The position numbers were made by a program, and so were the translations under genes. A stretch of 64,000 nt of DNA from the IMG/VR virus record IMGVR_UViG_3300037244_000020, positions 26,838 through 90,837 of that record; one strand, written 5' to 3'. This document shows, one piece after another, positions 2,160 to 48,585 of this stretch (its first letter is position 1; each line of letters opens with the position of its first letter). The notes under the pieces are model-generated. The model saw nothing but the letters and a program-made list of their open reading frames with translations. It ran no database searches and was not told the origin of the DNA. The DNA comes from a virus.

Positions 2160-2789
2160 CTAAACTAGGCCAGCTCCTCTCAGGTCCGCGCTGCTCAGGT
2201 CCGCGTAGCGCAGGTCCGCGCTGCTCAGGTTTGCGCCTTCCAGGTCCGCGTAGCTCAGGTCCGCGTAGCTCAGGTCCGCGCTGCTCAGGTTTGCGCCTTC
2301 CAGGTCCGCGTAGCTCAGGTCCGCGTAGCTCAGGTCCGCGTAGCGCAGGTCCGCGCCTCTCAGGTTTGCGCTGCTCAGGTCCGCGTAGCGCAGGTTTGCG
2401 CTGCTCAGGTCCGCGTAGCGCAGGTCCGCGCCTCTCAGGTTTGCGCCTTCCAGGTCCGCGTAGCGCAGGTCCGCGTAGCTCAGGTTTGCGTAGCGCAGGT
2501 TTGCGTAGCGCAGGTTTGCGTAGCTCAGGTTTGCGTAGCTCAGGTTTGCGTAGCTCAGGTTTGCGTAGCTCAGGTCCGCGTAGCTCAGGTTTGCGTAGCG
2601 CAGGTTTGCGTAGCGCAGGTTTGCGTAGCTCAGGTTTGCGTAGCTCAGGCCAGCTCCTCTCAGGTTTGCTCCTTCCAGGTCCGCGCCTTTTGCCACCGCA
2701 GCACCCGCTGTTACCGCTTCGGTATTGTTCGGGGCCTCGTGGCTGAACAAAACTTCTTGCGTCGTTCTATGTTTAATTTCGATTTTCAT
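2160..2789 (-). CDS. Pentapeptide-repeat protein
   Basis: A 209-residue protein. The first 35 residues are ordinary; the rest is about 34 consecutive A(D/N)LxX pentapeptides, mostly [15 protein letters not shown] and EGANL. Such sequences fold into a right-handed quadrilateral beta helix. Family members include MfpA and Qnr proteins that mimic DNA and bind gyrase, but most phage members have no known target. The DNA is correspondingly repetitive. It is the first gene after the promoter at 2867-2895. The gyrase link is an inference from fold only. Confidence 0.88.
2176..2690. repeat. 15-bp coding tandem repeat array
   Basis: The array has units of the form CAGGTYYGCGTAGCK on the plus strand, encoding the pentapeptides of the leftward gene. 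It includes an exact 60-bp tandem duplication (2221-2280 equals 2281-2340), so the array has expanded recently by whole blocks. Confidence 0.9.
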
Positions 2790-2866
2790 AGTTATCTCAG
2801 TACTGTTCTTTCAACGCATCGCGATAAGACGTTACCGCAATGACAAAGTTCGGTTTCGATGTAGCT

Positions 2867-2895
2867 ATTATTCCGTACTTTTTAGTTTTGTGCAA
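2867..2895 (-). promoter_or_regulatory. Sigma70-type promoter, dispersed family copy 2
   Basis: Read leftward: TTGCAC (2890-2895), 17 bp, AATAAT (2867-2872), then AGCTACATCGAAACCG. It lies between the stop of 2932..3546 and the pentapeptide gene, which it should drive. Confidence 0.8.
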
Positions 2896-2931
2896 TCTTT
2901 AAATCGCTTTGTAGAGAGGATTGGCGCAGCG

Positions 2932-3546
2932 TTAGATGTCCACCATTTCCGGGGAAAACTCCAGGGGCGTGGCTTGAACGCCTCGAATCGGTTCTGCGCC
3001 CAGGGCTACCATGCTCTGCCCCTTTGGAAGCGCAGCCTTCGGTTTCTGTGCCGTATCGGCAGGTTCTGGTGCGGTGCCGCCTAGAGCCTTGATCGCAGCA
3101 TCAATCCTCTCGCGCTCGGTCGTCAGCCAGCCAATCTGCAGCGTTCTAATCATCGTCTCTGACGGCGGCCACTCTTCCGACTCGATCGCGGGAAGCATCA
3201 CGGCGCGCAGCCACCTATGGAAGTGGATAGCAGGGCCGTAGGCGGCTTCGGACCAGTCGTCGGTACGTGAGGCAGGGGTAGCGGCGAAGAGGCCCTCACG
3301 GGTCACGCATTTGCGCGGGTAACGCTTCCCGGCGAAGGGGAGAGTGCGAATCTCTACTTCGTCGCATGTGGGGCGCATGCGATCAGGGCATTCATACAGC
3401 AGCGCTTGCGCCAGTTCGGTGAACGGGAAGAAGAATTCGCCATCACAGCGTACGGCGGTCACGGGGTGAGTGTGCCCGTCATGGGCGGGGTAAGTGAGTG
3501 TGAGGGTGTCGGAGGGGGTGATCATGGTTTCTTGGGTGGGCCTCAT
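2932..3546 (-). CDS. BRO-N / antirepressor-like protein
   Basis: A 204-residue protein. Residues 30-140 carry patterns of the BRO-N domain found in phage antirepressors: FFFPFTELAQAL near the start, a TREGLF segment, and HFHRWLRAVMLPAI, which matches the usual (F)xxWLxxxVLPAI signature. BRO-N proteins bind DNA and often sit in regulatory regions. The C-terminal 60 residues are Ala/Pro-rich. The start at 3546 overlaps the upstream stop as ATGA; an internal ATG at 3525 is possible. Confidence 0.6.
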   Translation of the reverse strand: MRPTQETMITPSDTLTLTYPAHDGHTHPVTAVRCDGEFFFPFTELAQALLYECPDRMRPTCDEVEIRTLPFAGKRYPRKCVTREGLFAATPASRTDDWSEAAYGPAIHFHRWLRAVMLPAIESEEWPPSETMIRTLQIGWLTTERERIDAAIKALGGTAPEPADTAQKPKAALPKGQSMVALGAEPIRGVQATPLEFSPEMVDI

Positions 3547-4617: not shown

Positions 4618-4755
4618 ACCCTTATGTTTAGCTTGTTCCCTGTGTATCTGCCAAGATTTGCAGGGGGCTTTAAGGTTCGCAGCGCTTTGCACGCCGCGTT
4701 CGGAAAGGTAGGCCAATCTCAGCGATTTGTCAATACCTCCCGCAGCGACTGACCG

Positions 4756-4902
4756 ACCGTACGCAGAGCTACCCCCCCCGGCGGAAACCCCCAGGTTGGG
4801 ACTTTGTTAGTCACTTTTGTACAGAGAGATATCTTATACAAAAGTAACTAACATTCTTCTTCCCTGCGAGTTTCCTTCTGGGGGGGTGCCTTTGCGTACG
4901 GT
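4756..4902. promoter_or_regulatory. Nested inverted-repeat structure
   Basis: The outer arms, 4756-4777 and 4881-4902, match at 19 of 22 positions (ACCGTACGCA... and ...TGCGTACGGT). A short GGAAAC/GTTTCC pair lies inside. Inner arms at 4805-4821 and 4837-4853 match at 16 of 17 positions (core ACTTTTGTA/TACAAAAGT). AGATATCT (4827-4834) sits at the centre. The whole has the symmetry of a cruciform or a multi-dimer operator. No gene is present. Confidence 0.7.
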
Positions 4903-4921
4903 AAATAACTCCAATAAATTC

Positions 4922-4970
4922 AACTACTTATAAGTGCACTTTTTTGGTGCACTAGCAATGACAAGTAGTT
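4922..4970. repeat. Small stem-loop with GTGCAC pair
   Basis: AACTACTT (4922-4929) pairs with AAGTAGTT (4963-4970). Inside are two copies of the palindrome GTGCAC (4934-4939, 4947-4952) separated by seven nucleotides, mostly T. It directly abuts the first 24-bp repeat of the array, so it is probably part of the same control or origin region. Confidence 0.5.
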
Positions 4971-5410
4971 AGCTGCATTCAATGTAGGCTAATGCCTATT
5001 TTTTAAGCACCGCTGCCTAATTTTTAAGCATTAGCCTACATTGAACGTAGCTAGGTTTTGCCTATTTTTTAAGCATTAGCCTACATCAATGTAGGCTAAT
5101 TCGGGTTTAGCCTACATTGATGTAGGCTAATTTAGGGTTAGCTGCATTCAATGTAGGCTAGTTTCCTTACAAAGCTGAGAGAGGCTCCCGAACGCCGTTG
5201 TAAGGAAACTCATGAGTGGCGTGAAAACAACGGGTTTTTAGCTGCACTCAATGTAGGCTAATGCCCGATTAGCCTACGTCAATGTAGGCTAATGCCTATT
5301 TTTTAAGCAAAAGCTAGCCTACGTCAATGTAGGCTAATGCCTATTTTTTAAGCAGGTGAGCGGAAAGCGTGCCTATTTTTTAGGCATTAGCCTACATTGA
5401 ATGCAGCTAA
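4969..5410. repeat. Repeat-rich candidate replication origin
   Basis: This stretch has no gene. It holds nine copies of a 24-bp near-palindrome of form TTAGCCTACA-N4-TGTAGGCTAA at 4969, 5031, 5076, 5107, 5138, 5238, 5269, 5314 and 5387. Interleaved are six copies of TGCCTATTTTTTAAGCA at 4993, 5014, 5059, 5293, 5338 and 5370. The AT-rich second element repeatedly abuts the palindrome. Iterated binding sites next to AT-rich tracts are the hallmark of iteron-type origins or multi-site operators. Which of these it is cannot be told from sequence alone. Confidence 0.75.
5161..5209. repeat. 12-bp perfect hairpin inside the repeat region
   Basis: GTTTCCTTACAA (5161-5172) and TTGTAAGGAAAC (5198-5209) flank a 25-nt loop. 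It splits the repeat array into a left group of five and a right group of four 24-bp palindromes. Confidence 0.65.
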
Positions 5411-9672: not shown

Positions 9673-10191
9673 TTAGACGTGTTTCCAAGTCTTGCGCGTG
9701 CGGATCGCGTGGACAGTCACATTCGACACACTGTAGCGCGCGCCCAACACTCTGTTCGTGTCCCTTGACAAACGAATATCCCTCACATCCTGATCTGTCA
9801 GCGACGATTTGCCGGACCGTTCGCCTCGTAGCGCCTGGCGGCACGTTGCAGCAGTCTGTATAGCGTCTGCGTGCGTTCCCCAGCGAAGGTTGCTGATGCG
9901 ATTGTCCGCGTAATCACCATTGGCGTGCAAGCCTGATAAGCCATCAGGACACGCGCCTGAAAACGCTTCCAACACTAAGCGATGAACCAGAAACCGCTGA
10001 GTCACGCTGTCTTTGCACAGTGTTACCTGCCAACGACCTTGATTGTTCTTGCCAGGTTTCAGCAGTTGCTTCGGTTTGCGTGTGCCAGATGCTGTCGCTT
10101 CGGCGGTCAGTCTAACCAAGCTGCGAACACGACCATCGTCGCTGACCTGGTACAGACCGATGTAGCTGATAACGTCTCGCCATTGTTCCAT
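9673..10191 (-). CDS. HNH homing endonuclease (NUMOD4 + HNH + HTH)
   Basis: 172 residues. The NUMOD4 module opens the protein (MEQWRDVISYIGLYQVSDDG, VRSL). The HNH core follows (FLVHRLVLEAFSG... LHANGDYADNRISNLRWGT), with the His, Asn and His positions of the HNH_3 type. The C-terminal KSSLTDQDVRDIRLSR and RYSVSNVTVHAIRTRKTWK form a DNA-recognition helix module. Such enzymes are selfish elements that cut cognate sites in related phages. It is divergent from the terminase genes and has its own promoter. Confidence 0.88.
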   Translation of the reverse strand: MEQWRDVISYIGLYQVSDDGRVRSLVRLTAEATASGTRKPKQLLKPGKNNQGRWQVTLCKDSVTQRFLVHRLVLEAFSGACPDGLSGLHANGDYADNRISNLRWGTHADAIQTAATCRQALRGERSGKSSLTDQDVRDIRLSRDTNRVLGARYSVSNVTVHAIRTRKTWKHV

Positions 10192-10511: not shown

Positions 10512-10637
10512 ATGCGCTCGGCCTACCCCCACCCCCCTTTTTTGCTCGGCGCGGCGCGTGGTATCCTCGCGTCTGTGGTATGTCAAGTTTTTCGAGTTTG
10601 TCACATTACAATAAGCTTACAGCGGGGTAACGAGAGC

Positions 10638-11366
10638 ATGACCTACGATTGCAAAGATCTGACCGAGCGGCAGCGCAAGTTCTGCGAAGAGTACATCGTA
10701 GACCTGAACGGACGCGCCGCTGCCGAGCGCGCTGGCTATGCCCCGAACGGCGGCCAGGTCACGAACCTTCTCAAGCTCCCGCACGTCAAGGCATACGTCG
10801 ACTATCTCAGCGACGAGCGCGCCAAGCGTGTCGGCGTGACTTCCGACTTCATCCTAGAGCGCCTGCTCGCCATGGCGACGGTCGACGTCAACGACCTCGT
10901 CCAGTACCGACGCCACTGTTGTCGACACTGCTACGGCGAGGACTTCCGATATCAGTGGACCGACGCTGAGTACGAGCGCGCCGTCAAAGAGGCCACGGAC
11001 CGTCACCTCCCCATCCCCGAGGCACCTGGCGGAAACGGCTACGACCGCACCAAAGACGCCAACCCCGACTGCCCAGAGTGCCGTGGACAGGGTAAAGGCG
11101 AGGTGTTCGCTGCCGACACGCGCAAGATGTCACCTGAAGCGAAGATGTTGTACGATGGCGCCAAAGTGGGCCGCGACGGCTTGGAGATCAAGACGCTCGA
11201 TCGGCTGCGCATTTACGAACTGATCGGTAAGCACATCGGCATGTTCAAGGACAAGGTCGAGCACAGTGGCAAGATCGAGAATACCGGCCCGGTGCTGAAC
11301 TTGACACTCGCTGCGCCGCCGGGGACGAAGATCGCGGAAAATTCCCAAGAACCCACCAAGGAGTGA
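10638..11366 (+). CDS. Terminase small subunit
   Basis: 242 residues. The N-terminal domain is typical of Terminase_2: LTERQRKFCEEYIVDLNGRAA, then AERAGY, then a second helix unit ending in a DYLSDERA helix. The middle carries four paired cysteines (CCRHCYGEDF and CPECRGQGKG), a likely zinc-binding insert. The C-terminus (IENTGPVLNLTL) is a usual feature of the family. It recognises viral DNA and feeds it to the large subunit. The ATG at 10638 is chosen because the N-terminus then aligns with the family. Confidence 0.85.
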   Translation: MTYDCKDLTERQRKFCEEYIVDLNGRAAAERAGYAPNGGQVTNLLKLPHVKAYVDYLSDERAKRVGVTSDFILERLLAMATVDVNDLVQYRRHCCRHCYGEDFRYQWTDAEYERAVKEATDRHLPIPEAPGGNGYDRTKDANPDCPECRGQGKGEVFAADTRKMSPEAKMLYDGAKVGRDGLEIKTLDRLRIYELIGKHIGMFKDKVEHSGKIENTGPVLNLTLAAPPGTKIAENSQEPTKE

Positions 11367-12146: not shown

Positions 12147-12223
12147 GTCATTCCCGAAAAGCTGGCTATCCACCGGCCTGACGTGTCTCCTCAGTGGATA
12201 TCGATTGGGAAATCGGGAATGAC
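12147..12223 (+). promoter_or_regulatory. Leader hairpin covering the GIY-YIG start codon
   Basis: GTCATTCCCGA (12147-12157) pairs perfectly with TCGGGAATGAC (12213-12223), and TATCCAC (12167-12173) pairs with GTGGATA (12194-12200). The right arm contains the ATG at 12219 and adjoins the likely ribosome binding site, so folding should limit translation. Similar occlusion is known for several T4 homing endonuclease genes. Confidence 0.6.
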
Positions 12224-13070
12224 AGACCAGACAAACTGGCCCAAACGCGGTGACGGCATTTGTGGCATCTACGCGATTGAAAATCTCATCGACGGGAAGT
12301 TCTACGTCGGGCAGTCTGCGGACATGAGATCAAGGTGGGACGTTCACCTTTATATGCTCAGAAAAGGAACGGCGAGCACGAAATTGTTGCGCGCATGGCG
12401 AAAGCACGGTGCGGAGAATTTCAGGTTCTTTGCCGTGGAAGAATGCTCAGTCGAAGATCTTACAGCGCGAGAGCAAGCGTGGATCGACACGTTCGACGCT
12501 GTGAAGAAGGGCTACAATATCAGTCCCTTGGCGAATTGCACGCGCGGGGTGAAGCACACGGCCGAGGCCCGCGCTAACATGTCAAAGGCGCAACTTGAGA
12601 TAAACTCACGCCCCGGCGCAAAGGAGCGACGAGTAGCTGTGGCAACGAAGGCTTGGGAAGACCCGGATGCTTTAGCCCGAAAGAGCGCGGCCAGCAAGAA
12701 ATCAAGGAACAAGCCAGAGGCAAAGGCCAGGCAATCCAAGGTATCAAAGGACCAGTGGGCAGACCCGGAAGGCAGGGAGCGTCGTCTGGATGCCTTAGTA
12801 AAGTGGTGGGCAGACCCTGACGCGAAAGCTAGTAGGCTAATGCTCCTGCAGAGTGGACGCACCCCAGAGGTAGAGGCGCAAAGGAAGGAGGCCGCAAAGG
12901 CAGCGAGGAGAGCCAGTGCGATCCTCGCTGTGGAAGACGTCTTGGAGATCCGCGCCAGATACGTATTCCGATGTCCGGCAAATGGAGGGAAAGCACTCGC
13001 AAAGGAGTTCGGAGTGTCCAACACGTACATCAGCAACATTATCGTGCGAAAGGTTTGGAAGGACATCTAA
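12219..13070 (+). CDS. GIY-YIG homing endonuclease
   Basis: 283 residues. The GIY-YIG nuclease domain is at residues 8-95: GICGIYAIENLIDGKFYVGQ, then SRW..H, an AWRKHGAENFRF segment, and the catalytic Glu in LTAREQAWIDTF. A long basic DNA-binding middle follows with repeated (E)xKARxxxxxxxWADPE units. A C-terminal HTH-like end is present (ALAKEFGVSNTYISNIIVRK). It lies 40 bp upstream of the large terminase gene, which is interrupted; see findings. Confidence 0.9.
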   Translation: MTDQTNWPKRGDGICGIYAIENLIDGKFYVGQSADMRSRWDVHLYMLRKGTASTKLLRAWRKHGAENFRFFAVEECSVEDLTAREQAWIDTFDAVKKGYNISPLANCTRGVKHTAEARANMSKAQLEINSRPGAKERRVAVATKAWEDPDALARKSAASKKSRNKPEAKARQSKVSKDQWADPEGRERRLDALVKWWADPDAKASRLMLLQSGRTPEVEAQRKEAAKAARRASAILAVEDVLEIRARYVFRCPANGGKALAKEFGVSNTYISNIIVRKVWKDI

Positions 13071-13110: not shown

Positions 13111-14583
13111 ATGAATTTGAGTCTTCATCAACGCCAATCAGAAGCTTTCACTTCGAAAGCGACGGAGATTTTGTATGGGGGCGGGTGGTGCCTCTGCTAG
13201 AAGGTTTGGCAGAGGCACCACCCGCCTTCTTCAATGAGCGCCGCAGGCGGAGGCAAGTCCCATTTGCTTCGCGTAGCGTCGATCGCATGGTGTGCCGACA
13301 TTCCGGGCATCCAAATAGCCCTGTTCCGCAGGCTCAGTGACGACATCACGAAGAACCATTTAACTGGGGTTTCCGGGTATCCCGAGCTTCTGGCCGACTG
13401 GGTGAAGGCAGGGCATGTGAAAATCAATTTTTCGGCCCGTACAATAACTTTTTGGAACGGGTCGAAGATCCATCTTTGTCACTGCCAGTACGAGTCCGAC
13501 GTATCGAAGTATCAGGGAGCAGAGTTCCAAGTTGAAATGTTTGACGAGGGAACCCACTTCTCCGAGACCATCTACAGGTACCTGCGAGGGCGGCTGCGCA
13601 TGGGCGCACTGAAACTCCCGGAAAAGTATGTTGGGATGTTTCCCCGGATTTTGATAGGGTCGAATCCTGGATCGGTCGGGCATGCCTGGGTCAAAGCGTC
13701 TTTCGTTGACATGGCGCCCCCGATGGAACTGGTGCAAATGCCGAAAAACGAAGGGGGTCTCATTCGGCAGTTCATACCCGCGAAACTGGAAGACAACCCG
13801 ACGTTGATGGAAAGCGATCCGATGTATGCGGATCGCTTGGAGGGTCTCGGTCGACCTGAACTCGTCAAAGCCCTTCGTGACGGGGACTGGAACATAGTTG
13901 CAGGGGGTATGTTCGACGACGTGTTCTCTACTAAGCACCAAGTTCTTGCCCCCTTCGAGATTCCTCGCACCTGGAGGATCGACAGGTCATTTGATTGGGG
14001 TTCAGGAAAACCCTTCGCGGTGTTGTGGTTCGCCGAGTCAGACGGGTCGTCCGTTCGCCTTGCAGACGGCTCCGAGCGTAACTTCCCACGAGGGTCGATC
14101 TTCCAGATCTCTGAGTGGTATGGCAGTAACGGCAAACCCAATGAGGGTCTGCGCATGATGAATGCGGAAATTGCACGCGGCGTGAAGGAGCGCGATTTAG
14201 CTATGAAGCGCATCGTCCATGCTGGCCCCGGCGACAACTCGATAAATGACGTAATCAACGGCACGAGCATTGCAGACGAGATGGCGCGTGCGCCGAATTA
14301 CATCCGCTGGACGCCATCTGACAAGAACCCAGGCAGCCGGAAGCACGGGTGGGACATCCTGCGAAAGCTGCTGAAGAACGCAATTGATAGGCCGCTGGAA
14401 GAGCCGGGTTTCTACATTTTCGACACCTGTCGAAACACGATCCGTACGCTTCCGGTCTTACCTCGCCACGCCACCAAAGACGGGGATCTTGACTCCGACG
14501 CGGAAGACCATATTGCAGATGCAATTCGCTACCGTGTCTCCGCCAAAAAACGCACGATGACCGTCAGCGGCCTCGCTATATAA
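13111..14583 (+). CDS. Terminase large subunit, P-loop interrupted by a 57-nt insert with a stop
   Basis: The packaging ATPase and nuclease. The frame opens MNLSLHQRQSEAF... EILYGG, then meets TAG at 13198. The same frame resumes after the hairpin with AAGGGKSHLLRVASI. Skipping 13183-13239 gives the usual P-loop GGAAGGGKS and a protein of about 471 residues. Other motifs are present: Walker B-like VEMFDEGTHFS, nuclease acidic residues in DWGSGKPFAV and near DAEDHIADAIRY. Expression must involve bypass, readthrough or restart at the ATG 13234 (product MSAAGGGKS...). Confidence 0.85.
13180..13226 (+). other. Perfect 18-bp hairpin with UAG in its loop, inside the large terminase gene
   Basis: The left arm 13180-13197 (GGCGGGTGGTGCCTCTGC) is exactly complementary to 13209-13226, with loop TAGAAGGTTTG. 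It forms the core of a 57-nt in-frame insert flanked by GCG (13181-13183 and 13238-13240). The layout (stop codon, hairpin, resumption in the same frame) parallels the T4 gene 60 bypass element. Confidence 0.85.
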
Positions 14584-14607: not shown

Positions 14608-16161
14608 ATGACCGTCAACTTCACTGCGACGACCCCTGAGGGGTTTCCGCCACCAGTCCAACAACTGATTCAAGGCAATGCTAACGACGTGCGCGAACCA
14701 AGCCGCGTCGTGCAGAACATGATGGTCAACTGGCTCAAGGTCACGACGTTGCTCGGCGGCACCAAGGCGATGCGGGAGGCTGCGACCATCTTCCTCCCCA
14801 AGTGGCGCCGGGAAGAGCCGAATGACTACGCGCTGCGCCTGAAGACGACGGTGTTGTTCAACTGCTTCGGCCATACGGTAGACGGCCTAGGCGGCAAGCC
14901 TTTCGTGCGGCCGCTGGGCTGGTCGACGGATATGTCTCCAGAGGTTGAGGCGTGGTTCCCCAACATCGACCTGACGGGTCGCAGCTTTCACGTCTTCGCG
15001 CAGGAAGTCTTCAAGTTCTCACTTGCCTACGGCCTGTCGCATGTGCTGATTGACTATCCGGTGACTGCGGGGAAGGTGCGTACCGTCGCTGATGAAAAAG
15101 CGATCGGCGCCCGCCCCTACCTAGTCCACGTCAAGGCCAACCAGATTCTCGGCTGGCGCTCGACGATGAAAAATGGCGGCGAAGTGCTGACGCAAGTTCG
15201 CATCCTTGAGACCTGCGAAGTGGAAGATGGCCCGTTTGCCACGCGAACCGTCGAGCAGGTCCGCGTGTTGGAGCCGGGAACGTGGACGACCTACCGGCTA
15301 AAGCCCAAGCAGGCGCTTGTCACTCAGATCAGCCCGTCATCCAATGATCCGCAAGAGTGGGCGGTGTTCGATAGCGGCACCACGTCGCTCGACTACATCC
15401 CGCTCATCACTTTTTACGCACGCCGTACAGGTTTCATGACGGCGGACTCGCCGCTAATCGACATCGCGGACCTGAATATCCTGCACTGGCAGGTCGGGTC
15501 AGACATGTATTCGGTGCTGCACACCGCGAGCGTGCCGATTTTGACGATCACCGGCGTCGAAGGCAATGACGATGGCGAAGCGACTCTGGAAATCGGCACG
15601 GCGTCGGCGCTGAAGTTACCACAGGGCGCAACGGCACGCTTTACAGAGCACAGCGGGAAGGCTGTCGGGTCGGCGCTGACCGCACTCGGCACGATGGAAG
15701 AGCAGATGCGTCTGCTCGGTGCCGAGTTGCTTGTGAAGAAGCCGGGGCAGGCGACCGCGACGCAGGCTACGCTCGACACGAGCCAGCAGCGGTCGGAACT
15801 CCAGGCTATCACTAGCGTATTCGAGGATACGTTGGATCAGATCGTCGGGGTCATGGCGGCATGGGGCAATATCCAGAACTTCACGGGCAACATGCAGGTC
15901 TATGACGACTTCCTGCTCGCGGCCGACGACGCGGTGCAAGAAGCGCTGCTATTCTCGATCGTGACGGCAGGTCTGCTCTCGCCGCAGTCGTTCTTTGAAG
16001 CCATGCAGCGGCGTAACGTGTATGACACTGACATGACTTGGGAGCAAGAGCAGGAGCGTATCAAGGCGCAGCCGCTGCCAGCGCCGTCCCTGCTGCAACC
16101 GAAGGTGGCAGGCATTCCGAAGGTGGCGTCAAGTTCTACTTTGGCGCAGTTGAGTGATTGA
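14608..16161 (+). CDS. Portal protein (DUF4055-type)
   Basis: 517 residues, MTVNFTATTPEGFPPPVQQL.... The body matches the siphovirus portal family annotated as DUF4055: DYALRLKTTVLFNCFGHTVD, DLTGRSFHVFAQEVFKFSL, LAYGLSHVLIDYP, and the later LNILHWQVGSDMYSVLHTA. It forms the dodecameric DNA channel at the capsid vertex and contacts the terminase. It follows the large terminase by 24 bp; TATAATCGCGGAAA lies between them. Confidence 0.85.
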   Translation: MTVNFTATTPEGFPPPVQQLIQGNANDVREPSRVVQNMMVNWLKVTTLLGGTKAMREAATIFLPKWRREEPNDYALRLKTTVLFNCFGHTVDGLGGKPFVRPLGWSTDMSPEVEAWFPNIDLTGRSFHVFAQEVFKFSLAYGLSHVLIDYPVTAGKVRTVADEKAIGARPYLVHVKANQILGWRSTMKNGGEVLTQVRILETCEVEDGPFATRTVEQVRVLEPGTWTTYRLKPKQALVTQISPSSNDPQEWAVFDSGTTSLDYIPLITFYARRTGFMTADSPLIDIADLNILHWQVGSDMYSVLHTASVPILTITGVEGNDDGEATLEIGTASALKLPQGATARFTEHSGKAVGSALTALGTMEEQMRLLGAELLVKKPGQATATQATLDTSQQRSELQAITSVFEDTLDQIVGVMAAWGNIQNFTGNMQVYDDFLLAADDAVQEALLFSIVTAGLLSPQSFFEAMQRRNVYDTDMTWEQEQERIKAQPLPAPSLLQPKVAGIPKVASSSTLAQLSD

Positions 16162-19377: not shown

Positions 19378-20214
19378 GTGAACTACCAGAAGCATTACGA
19401 TACGCTGATCGATCGCGCCCGAAACCGTAAGCTTTCAGGGTATAAGGAACGCCATCACGTCATCCCTCGCTGTATGGGCGGGAGCGATGACAAGTCAAAT
19501 CTTGTGGAGTTGCTGGCGGAAGAGCATTTCGTGGGCCATCTTCTGTTGGCGCGCATCCACCCGGAAAACAGAAAGTTGGTGTTCGCTGCGAACATGATGC
19601 TGATGAACAGCCCGATGCATCATGGCGCTCGATCCAGGAACAAGAGGCATGCGTGGCTTAGAAAGGCACACGCCGAGGCAGCAAGAGCTACGCATCTAGG
19701 AGTTCCAAAGTCCCCTGAACACGTCGCCAAGGTAAGCCGGGCATTGACGGGTAAGCCAGGAACGCGGCGAGGGGCGGTCACTGCGGAGGAAACCAAGGCG
19801 AAGCAGTCCGCAGCAGCCTTCGCTAGACCTGACAAGGCTGAAAATGACGAGAAGATGCGGGAAGGCTACGCAAGGATGACGCCACAGGAGCGTACGGCGC
19901 AGGCGGGTAAGGCATGGGATACAAAGCGCGCCAACGGGAAAGATAGGGACACGCCAGAGACGAGGGCCAAGAAAAGCACGGCGGGCAGGGAGCGCTCTCA
20001 GAGAGAAACCTCAGAGGAGAAAACCGCCCGAGCTTTGAAGGCTGCAGAGTCACGCCGCCGTAACGGAAGTGACAAAGCTACGCCTGAATCCCGAGAGCGT
20101 ATGCGCCAAGCCCATCTCGGGAAGAAACAATCCTTGGAAACCGTCGCCAAACGTAAAGCCACTATAGCACGCAATAAAGCGCTCAAGGCTGTTACAATGC
20201 CGGAAAACACCTGA
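19378..20214 (+). CDS. HNH homing endonuclease
   Basis: 278 residues from a GTG with GAGGA 8 nt upstream. The core RHHVIPRCMGGSDDKSNLVE and EEHFVGHLLLARIHPEN is the HNH pattern of phage free-standing endonucleases (SegHNH/H-N-H type). The rest is a very basic tail with short repeats (NUMOD3-like, e.g. TPETRAKKSTAGRE, TPESRERMRQAHLGKK) that should bind DNA. It sits between the coat gene and the neck genes behind the terminator, as an insertion. Confidence 0.85.
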   Translation: MNYQKHYDTLIDRARNRKLSGYKERHHVIPRCMGGSDDKSNLVELLAEEHFVGHLLLARIHPENRKLVFAANMMLMNSPMHHGARSRNKRHAWLRKAHAEAARATHLGVPKSPEHVAKVSRALTGKPGTRRGAVTAEETKAKQSAAAFARPDKAENDEKMREGYARMTPQERTAQAGKAWDTKRANGKDRDTPETRAKKSTAGRERSQRETSEEKTARALKAAESRRRNGSDKATPESRERMRQAHLGKKQSLETVAKRKATIARNKALKAVTMPENT

Positions 20215-46970: not shown

Positions 46971-47653
46971 GATGAGGCTCCCAAGCGATGTCGCTTCAAC
47001 GCTGCGACCGCGACGGGTACGATCGGTTCGATCAAACTCAGCATTGCCTCAGCATAGACCCGAATCTCGTATTGCGAGTGCTCGTGGAGACGTAGTTTCA
47101 GGAAGTGCGCGAGATTGTGCAGGTCGACCGTGCAGAAGCAGTGTGAGTAGGTCGCGACCGGCAGAACAGTACGTGCCAGTTCGCGGGGGACGCCGTCAGC
47201 GATCATGTCCCGGTAGATAGTAAAACTGTCTCGGTTGAGGTTTGCCATCATGTCGCGCCAACCTTCTGCGAACGGGTGCTGCTCTTCCGTGCGCATCTGC
47301 TTATTTGAAGCGTGCTGTGTCGTGATCTGCTCGACGGCGGGTACGTAAAATTCTTCCGGCAACTCTGCGTAACGTGCGCTAACCTCGTTGAACGACCATG
47401 TACGGTGCCTATGCCACTGCCGGAACACGAAGATCGGCGCCTTCACGTCGAACGTGAACGTCACGGATTCCAGCGGACTGGTGTGGCCGTTCTTGATCAG
47501 GTAGTCGATCAGCTTTGCGTCGCTGCCAGTGTCTTCGCCAGCGCGCCACGCAGCGTTGTAGCTGACGCGTGCGGCGCGCGCGATGGATAGATCATTGCCC
47601 ATGTGGTCTACGAGGCGCACACTGCCGTGGTCTAGTACTTTGATTTCGTTCAT
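46949..47653 (-). CDS. thyX: Flavin-dependent thymidylate synthase
   Basis: 234 residues. The ThyX signature RHRTWSFNEVSAR lies at residues 82-94, with the expected FRQWHRHR lead and SARYAELPEEFY follow-up. Later motifs (RTVLPVATYSHCFCTVDLHN, HLRLHEHSQYEIR-like) complete the flavin and dUMP site. It makes dTMP from dUMP for phage DNA synthesis. It starts 4 nt inside the end of the GIY-YIG gene. Confidence 0.95.
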   Translation of the reverse strand: MNEIKVLDHGSVRLVDHMGNDLSIARAARVSYNAAWRAGEDTGSDAKLIDYLIKNGHTSPLESVTFTFDVKAPIFVFRQWHRHRTWSFNEVSARYAELPEEFYVPAVEQITTQHASNKQMRTEEQHPFAEGWRDMMANLNRDSFTIYRDMIADGVPRELARTVLPVATYSHCFCTVDLHNLAHFLKLRLHEHSQYEIRVYAEAMLSLIEPIVPVAVAALKRHRLGASSCITAPG

Positions 47654-48585
47654 TTGGATTCCTTTGGGTTAAGTTTTTCGAGTTCGCGGACTTTTAAAAT
47701 AGCTTCGTAAGCCGCTTCCGGGGTATCGAAAGTCCCTAAATACTTAAATTTTCCATCTAATGTAGTTTGGGCTTTCCACCTCCTTGGCGAGGATGCTTTT
47801 GTTACTCCGCAGTAGCCGCTAGTATTAGACGAGCGCGCCCGGCCTAGCCAGTAGTTCCCTATTTTTGCCTTCGTCTCAGCCTTAAGTTTCTTTCCTTTGT
47901 TTATCTTGGACAGCTTCTCCCGAGTCTCCTGGCTGCGCACCTTGCCTGCATTTTTGCCCTTCAAGGAAGCAGACATTTTCCGCTTGGTCTCGTCACTTAG
48001 AGGTACGCCACTTCGTTTACCCTTCTGCGCCGCTGACATCTTTGCGCGGGCGGCGGAGCTACGCTTTTTGCCCTTATTCCCTGTTGCGATGTTCGCTTTG
48101 TGCTCGTCCGTGAGTTTTCTCCCGGTTCGGATACCCCGCTGGGCTTCGCTCATTTTCGCTCGTGTTTCAGCACTTCTTTTCTGACCCTTATGCGACTCCG
48201 CGCGCCTCGCTTTAGTCTCCTCGCTCTGCACACTGCCCAGCATTCTCTGGCGGCACTTCTCTCCGAACTCCGGGCCGTGCTTCGTGCCCAACGCGCTCCC
48301 CGCTGTCATGTAGGAGTTGTACAGTTTCGACCTGCTGCGCGCGTCGATCTGCTCCTGCTCTCTGGCTATCAGGTCTTCTTTGGCGCAAAACGCGATCTTA
48401 GAGAAAACTAAGGCGTCTTCGCCGTACTTGTTGAACGCCCGCTGCAGACTTAGGCAGTGGTGTGCCCCCTGCCTCAAATGCCTGCGGTGCACCCTCCACC
48501 GGGCTTTAAATGATACGGCGCTTCCGACGTACTGCTTGCCGGAAGGAGACGTAATGGTGTAGATCCCGCAGTCAAAGTTGAGCAC
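47650..48585 (-). CDS. GIY-YIG homing endonuclease with NUMOD3 and AP2 domains
   Basis: 311 residues. GIY-YIG nuclease domain at residues 6-90 (DCGIYTITSPSGKQYVGSAV, ...ARWRVHRRHL, catalytic EQEQIDARSRSKLYNSYM). Then repeated NUMOD3-like DNA-binding units (TDEHKANIATGNKGKKRSSA and similar). The C-terminal AP2-like domain is SGYCGVTKASSPRRWKAQTT...YLGTFDTPEAAYEA. It is inserted between sbcC-like and thyX genes with no spacer on either side. Confidence 0.92.
   Translation of the reverse strand: MLNFDCGIYTITSPSGKQYVGSAVSFKARWRVHRRHLRQGAHHCLSLQRAFNKYGEDALVFSKIAFCAKEDLIAREQEQIDARSRSKLYNSYMTAGSALGTKHGPEFGEKCRQRMLGSVQSEETKARRAESHKGQKRSAETRAKMSEAQRGIRTGRKLTDEHKANIATGNKGKKRSSAARAKMSAAQKGKRSGVPLSDETKRKMSASLKGKNAGKVRSQETREKLSKINKGKKLKAETKAKIGNYWLGRARSSNTSGYCGVTKASSPRRWKAQTTLDGKFKYLGTFDTPEAAYEAILKVRELEKLNPKESK

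Follow-up and report, generated by a model that had tools for sequence, protein, structure and literature searches.

The gene for the large terminase subunit (TerL) of this phage is split within its Walker A/P-loop motif (GG|AAGGGKS) by a 57-nt, stop-containing, non-coding hairpin insert (13183-13239, + strand), and this observation, first made in a preliminary description of the sequence, belongs to something larger than was noted there. From comparisons with related terminases, we consider it fairly probable that the best explanation is a protective insert, linked to a homing endonuclease and skipped by translational bypassing. The window, by which we mean the whole 64,000-nt stretch analyzed (positions 26838-90837 of a phage record 90.8 kb long), holds the sole terminase of that record: a search of the record found no second one, and no tRNA genes were found either. 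TerL lies downstream of the gene for the small terminase subunit (10635-11366, +; PF03592, 2.6e-24; phrog_51) and is followed by the portal protein gene (14608-16161, +; phrog_145, 4.4e-116). As described previously, its frame opens at ATG 13111 with a first part (MNLSLHQRQSEAFTSKATEILYGG, codons 1-24, 13111-13182) that aligns with intact TerLs, reads GWCLC and meets an in-frame TAG (13198-13200), after which the unchanged frame runs on as SAAGGGKSHLL, the second part (AAGGGKSHLL...) occupying 13240-14583 with its stop at 14581-14583. The joined TerL aligns without gaps to that of Escherichia phage fHy-Eco03 over residues 1-253 and fits, again gap-free, the aligned intact terminases, among which YGGAAGGGKS is invariant; no solved structure matching the profile was found. 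A brute-force trial of all deletions restored YGGAAGGGKS / YGGAAGGGKSHLL with 57-nt deletions only. The earlier statement that deletion of 13183-13239 yields the P-loop and that other lengths do not thus stands; the GCG at either end of the insert, correctly reported before, gives four equivalent phases (13181-13237 to 13184-13240) with an identical joined product.

The perfect hairpin and the adjoining endonuclease gene of the preliminary description are likewise borne out. The hairpin (13180-13226, +) has 18-bp arms (13180-13197/13209-13226) and an 11-nt loop (13198-13208) opened by the TAG; its fold reaches -46.7 kcal/mol (z -8.5), a stability equaled by none of 200 shuffles, and perfect hairpins of at least 18 bp with a short loop occur at only two sites in the 64-kb window, that of the insert included. 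Elsewhere, at 4750-5400, inverted repeats cluster around TTAGCCTACATTGATGTAGGCTAA, and one of them (5075-5131) has perfect arms of 25 bp. A match to the hairpin arm in the sequence L003 lies in a coding region and was dismissed as chance, and a direct repeat, AAGGTTTGG(A/C)AG, common to the end of the endonuclease gene and the loop, is within chance by our own estimate. The GIY-YIG homing endonuclease gene (12183-13070, +; start GTG 12183 or ATG 12219; PF01541, 1.8e-11; phrog_314, 4.2e-27) ends 40 bp ahead of the TerL ATG, so that endonuclease and target genes adjoin; no relatives of this endonuclease were found in an IMG/VR search. Homing endonuclease genes abound in this phage: a second GIY-YIG gene (47650-48585, -) is situated between genes for an SbcC-like ATPase and a thyX-like protein, with no interruption seen in these neighbors, and an HNH/NUMOD4 endonuclease gene (9673-10191, -) and a homing-endonuclease-like gene just past the capsid gene (19378-20214, +) are also present.

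Relatives of this TerL were drawn from IMG/VR, GTDB genome contigs and annotated phages. Besides the window, 3 of the 152 distinct TerLs (L022, L082 and L028) carry stop-containing inserts in the Walker A motif, and past the motif all 152 are free of stops and frame breaks; two remote members aligned only partially. These counts are somewhat biased, because one scan used patterns located within the motif and because taking the 80 top hits of each scan favors genes unbroken downstream of it. The inserts differ from one to the next in position and length within the motif: the window leaves the frame at GGC and resumes at GCC after 57 nt, L022 leaves at GGT and resumes at AAA after 41 nt, with a frame change and two stops, L082 does so between the same triplets after 42 nt, and L028 leaves at GGC and resumes at GGA after 9 nt. 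The gaps span 9-57 nt and are preceded by only 24-29 codons. The inserts of L022 and L082 are homologous, and both contain a hairpin (10 and 12 bp). Their unequal lengths put the downstream sequence in different frames, which means that the element cannot be a decoded one; the landing triplet of L022 immediately follows a TAG. Downstream of the insert, the genes are under purifying selection (dN/dS 0.026 for L082-L094 and 0.075 for L028-L018). When the L022/L082 element was sought by pattern, those two alone were recovered, the remaining hits being terminator-like or unrelated; a second pattern scan, for any 27-57-nt Walker A insert, again gave these two, with its other 18 hits due to chance, and DNA searches found no close copy of the inserts in isolated phages. 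Three further TerLs (L130, L223 and L230) have inteins upstream of the TerL match that end as ...THN|SHL in the Walker A motif (GGGK|S). These share the target motif of the window insert but, unlike that 57-nt, stop-containing element, are removed as protein; the DNA coding for Walker A is a hot spot for mobile elements of various types. One apparent case, phage ctjLE16 (L010, MW202627.1), annotated at 1434-1678 as short ORFs and a truncated terminase, was rejected as a split terminase: its frame is intact and the annotation is at fault.

A trace of mobility comes from L082 and L094, which stem from the same metagenome. In L082, a GIY-YIG gene (2304-3032; Pfam score just under the cut-off on the protein and just over it in the survey of GIY-YIG domains across records) lies directly upstream of TerL and overlaps its start, while L094 has neither endonuclease nor insert. 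Their terminases are 93% identical in nucleotides, and the proteins 99% identical past the motif. Nucleotide identity breaks off where the small-subunit gene ends and restarts at position 3135 of L082, 5 nt past the insert, and synonymous divergence is 0.93 before the insert (29 codons, saturated) against 0.28 after it. L094 thus represents the empty site, with the edge of a conversion tract at the insert, and the pattern is the trace to be expected of a homing event with co-conversion. GIY-YIG genes are found in two of the four interrupted records versus none of 51 intact ones (Fisher p 0.004), the latter count being a lower bound as some intact records are short fragments. No adjacent GIY-YIG gene is present in L022 or L028, and the HNH genes of L022 sit far from TerL; an insert can apparently outlive its own nuclease. 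The link to a homing endonuclease, put forward in the preliminary description, is well supported by L082, with its GIY-YIG gene and a different insert, and by L094 with neither; through this pair, the sequence comparison strongly supports the mobile-cassette part of that proposal. The alignment of homologs suggested there delivered such a close relative for L082; the best empty-site relative of the window has 66% identity. For the window itself, analogy and gene order support a probable mobile cassette.

A comparable gap is present in isolated phages of an unrelated TerL family. Streptomyces phage phiHau3 has been named in a review as a likely terminase bypass (PMC5009743). Aligned with the TerL of phage R4, that of phiHau3 shows a gap, GGC|TTACTCCGGT|AAG, right before the Walker Lys. 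The same break in Walker A (GGC|TTACYCCGGT|AAG) is found in four isolates, with the 10-nt gap in the context AAGGGTTGGGGC-TTACYCCGGT-AAGGACCC: Triumph (L312, 2479-2514), phiHau3 (L309, 2602), GreenWeasel (L314, 1510) and BroPlease (L315, 1510); it is absent from R4 and Paedore. Public annotation divides the TerL of Triumph, GreenWeasel and BroPlease into two or more genes. In phiHau3, the frame changes once more near TerL residue 199. Since all four were isolated on Streptomyces, a Walker A gap of this type is compatible with growth. It resembles the window insert in lying exactly in the TerL Walker A motif, in its GGC take-off, its shortness and resumption at the Walker Lys; unlike it, the gap is 10 nt with a UUA codon and nearly matched codons (GGC/GGT), lacks the 18-bp hairpin, and an adjacent homing endonuclease is not established.

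We posit that a cassette comprising the GIY-YIG gene, the first codons of the neighboring TerL and the short hairpin insert would have homed into the conserved DNA coding for the terminase Walker A. The insert would abolish the cleavage site and thereby render the carrier phage immune to its own nuclease. It would be retained in the mRNA, where the ribosome may halt with peptidyl-tRNA-Gly on the candidate take-off codon GGC (Gly24, 13180-13182, +), lose codon-anticodon pairing and slide across the 57-nt gap with the assistance of the hairpin. Imperfect re-pairing would follow at the putative landing triplet AGC (13237-13239, +), with decoding restarting at GCC to yield a continuous YGG-AAGGGKS terminase. 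The preliminary description rightly cautioned that these codons are not matched, as they differ at base 1; the same holds for L022 and L082, with a match only in L028 (GGC/GGC). Landing on AGC or AGT would preserve pairing at bases 2 and 3 with a GCC-anticodon tRNA-Gly. Take-off is from GGY and landing on RGY in all cases, including the Streptomyces gaps; this post hoc pattern has a chance of roughly 1 in 16 for each independent event. Matched-codon landing at GGC 13246 or 13252 was rejected, as it would delete Walker A residues. Different inserts in one motif suggest that ribosomes must repeatedly jump them, and such a jump is fairly probable and the likeliest mechanism. The bypass proposed earlier remains the best candidate reading, albeit with codons that differ at base 1 and no room for a T4-style nascent-peptide signal.

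The nearest parallel is T4 gene 60/mobA, which has in common with the window a short non-coding insert that contains a stop and lies close to the 5' end of a gene for an essential enzyme, as well as a Gly take-off, a hairpin in the gap, an adjoining homing endonuclease and a proposed nuclease-protective role of the insert (PMC5009743, PMC3014915, PMC2988022). Bypassing in T4 takes place between two identical GGA codons, with the stop right next to take-off and a nascent-peptide signal located 25-30 residues before the P site (PMC5009743). The T4 ribosome slides with 99% processivity per nucleotide when gaps are shorter than about 56 nt (PMC11194080), against the 9-57 nt of the gaps described here. 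The window has the stop-containing gap in a conserved gene and the stem-loop at take-off (z -8.5), but lacks matched codons (GGC/AGC against GGA/GGA), and its TAG is the sixth codon past the take-off rather than adjacent (among the four records, a stop adjoins the take-off codon in L028 only). The mere 24 codons ahead of the gap leave no room for a nascent-peptide signal of the T4 kind. Other differences are the target (terminase Walker A versus topoisomerase), the nuclease (GIY-YIG versus HNH) and the long perfect stem, together with the fact that the jump in the window is one that we infer. The insert probably works like T4 gene 60, to judge from this analogy, yet we do not file it as a member of the T4 type, as GGC and AGC are not identical. 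The byp elements of Magnusiomyces mitochondria are similarly short, skipped by the ribosome and not always matched at take-off and landing (PMC5009743); in contrast to the window, they involve mitochondrial ribosomes, occur in many copies per genome and have no endonuclease cassette. With slightly more doubt than confidence, we propose that inserts linked to endonucleases settle repeatedly in the terminase Walker A and may be skipped otherwise than in T4, from GGY to RGY, with no distant nascent-peptide signal and with a base-1 mismatch in the long hairpin elements.

Several other fates of the insert have to be weighed against bypassing. Translation could stop at TAG 13198 and re-initiate at the in-frame ATG within the insert (13234-13236, +), 33 nt past the stop codon, to give a split TerL (MSAAGGGKSHLL..., i.e., MSAAGGGKSH...) with or without a short N-terminal peptide; homing endonucleases do divide other phage genes into working pieces, such as nrdA of Aeh1 and gene 43 (PMC2988022). 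This is unlikely, as Ser would replace the invariant first Gly of Walker A, the preceding YGG strand would be missing and a Shine-Dalgarno-like sequence is absent upstream of the ATG, while L022 and L082 have no start codon between the insert stop and the Walker Lys and would lose the Lys-Ser. Readthrough could draw on 57 being a multiple of three with a single in-frame stop; we regard it as very improbable, because it adds 19 residues inside Walker A and would be unusable in L022, where the element shifts the frame and has two stops. Sequence thus disfavors two options of the preliminary description, readthrough and, for the homologs, restart. That the genes are merely dead alleles or assembly errors is conceivable for metagenomic contigs, yet improbable given that the break falls in the same motif in four contigs and four isolates and in none of the 152 genes elsewhere, and given the purifying selection downstream, the endonuclease linkage and the empty-site pair.

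Removal of the insert at the RNA level, as a tiny intron-like element with rejoining of the ends, would produce the right protein in all cases, the frame-changing L022 included, and the predicted hairpin folds bring both insert ends close. We nevertheless judge it quite improbable: 41-57 nt is far smaller than known self-splicing introns, there is no Rfam match at the gathering threshold, and we know of no bacterial or phage enzyme that excises such inserts from mRNA. What favors bypassing over removal is a precedent of identical anatomy, together with the GGY take-off/RGY landing that recurs throughout. A group I/II intron was rejected, the insert being 57 nt and the Rfam search finding no intron RNA core, and so was an intein, as 19 codons with a stop hold no in-frame splicing protein.

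To our knowledge, T4 gene 60 was for decades nearly the sole established case of efficient bypassing in phages or bacteria. If the reading preferred here is true, gene callers mis-annotate terminases, a main phage marker gene, as split. With independent inserts in one motif, an empty-site partner and isolates at hand, the generality of bypassing becomes directly testable, as does the possibility that bypassing evolves as the answer of a host gene to a homing endonuclease.
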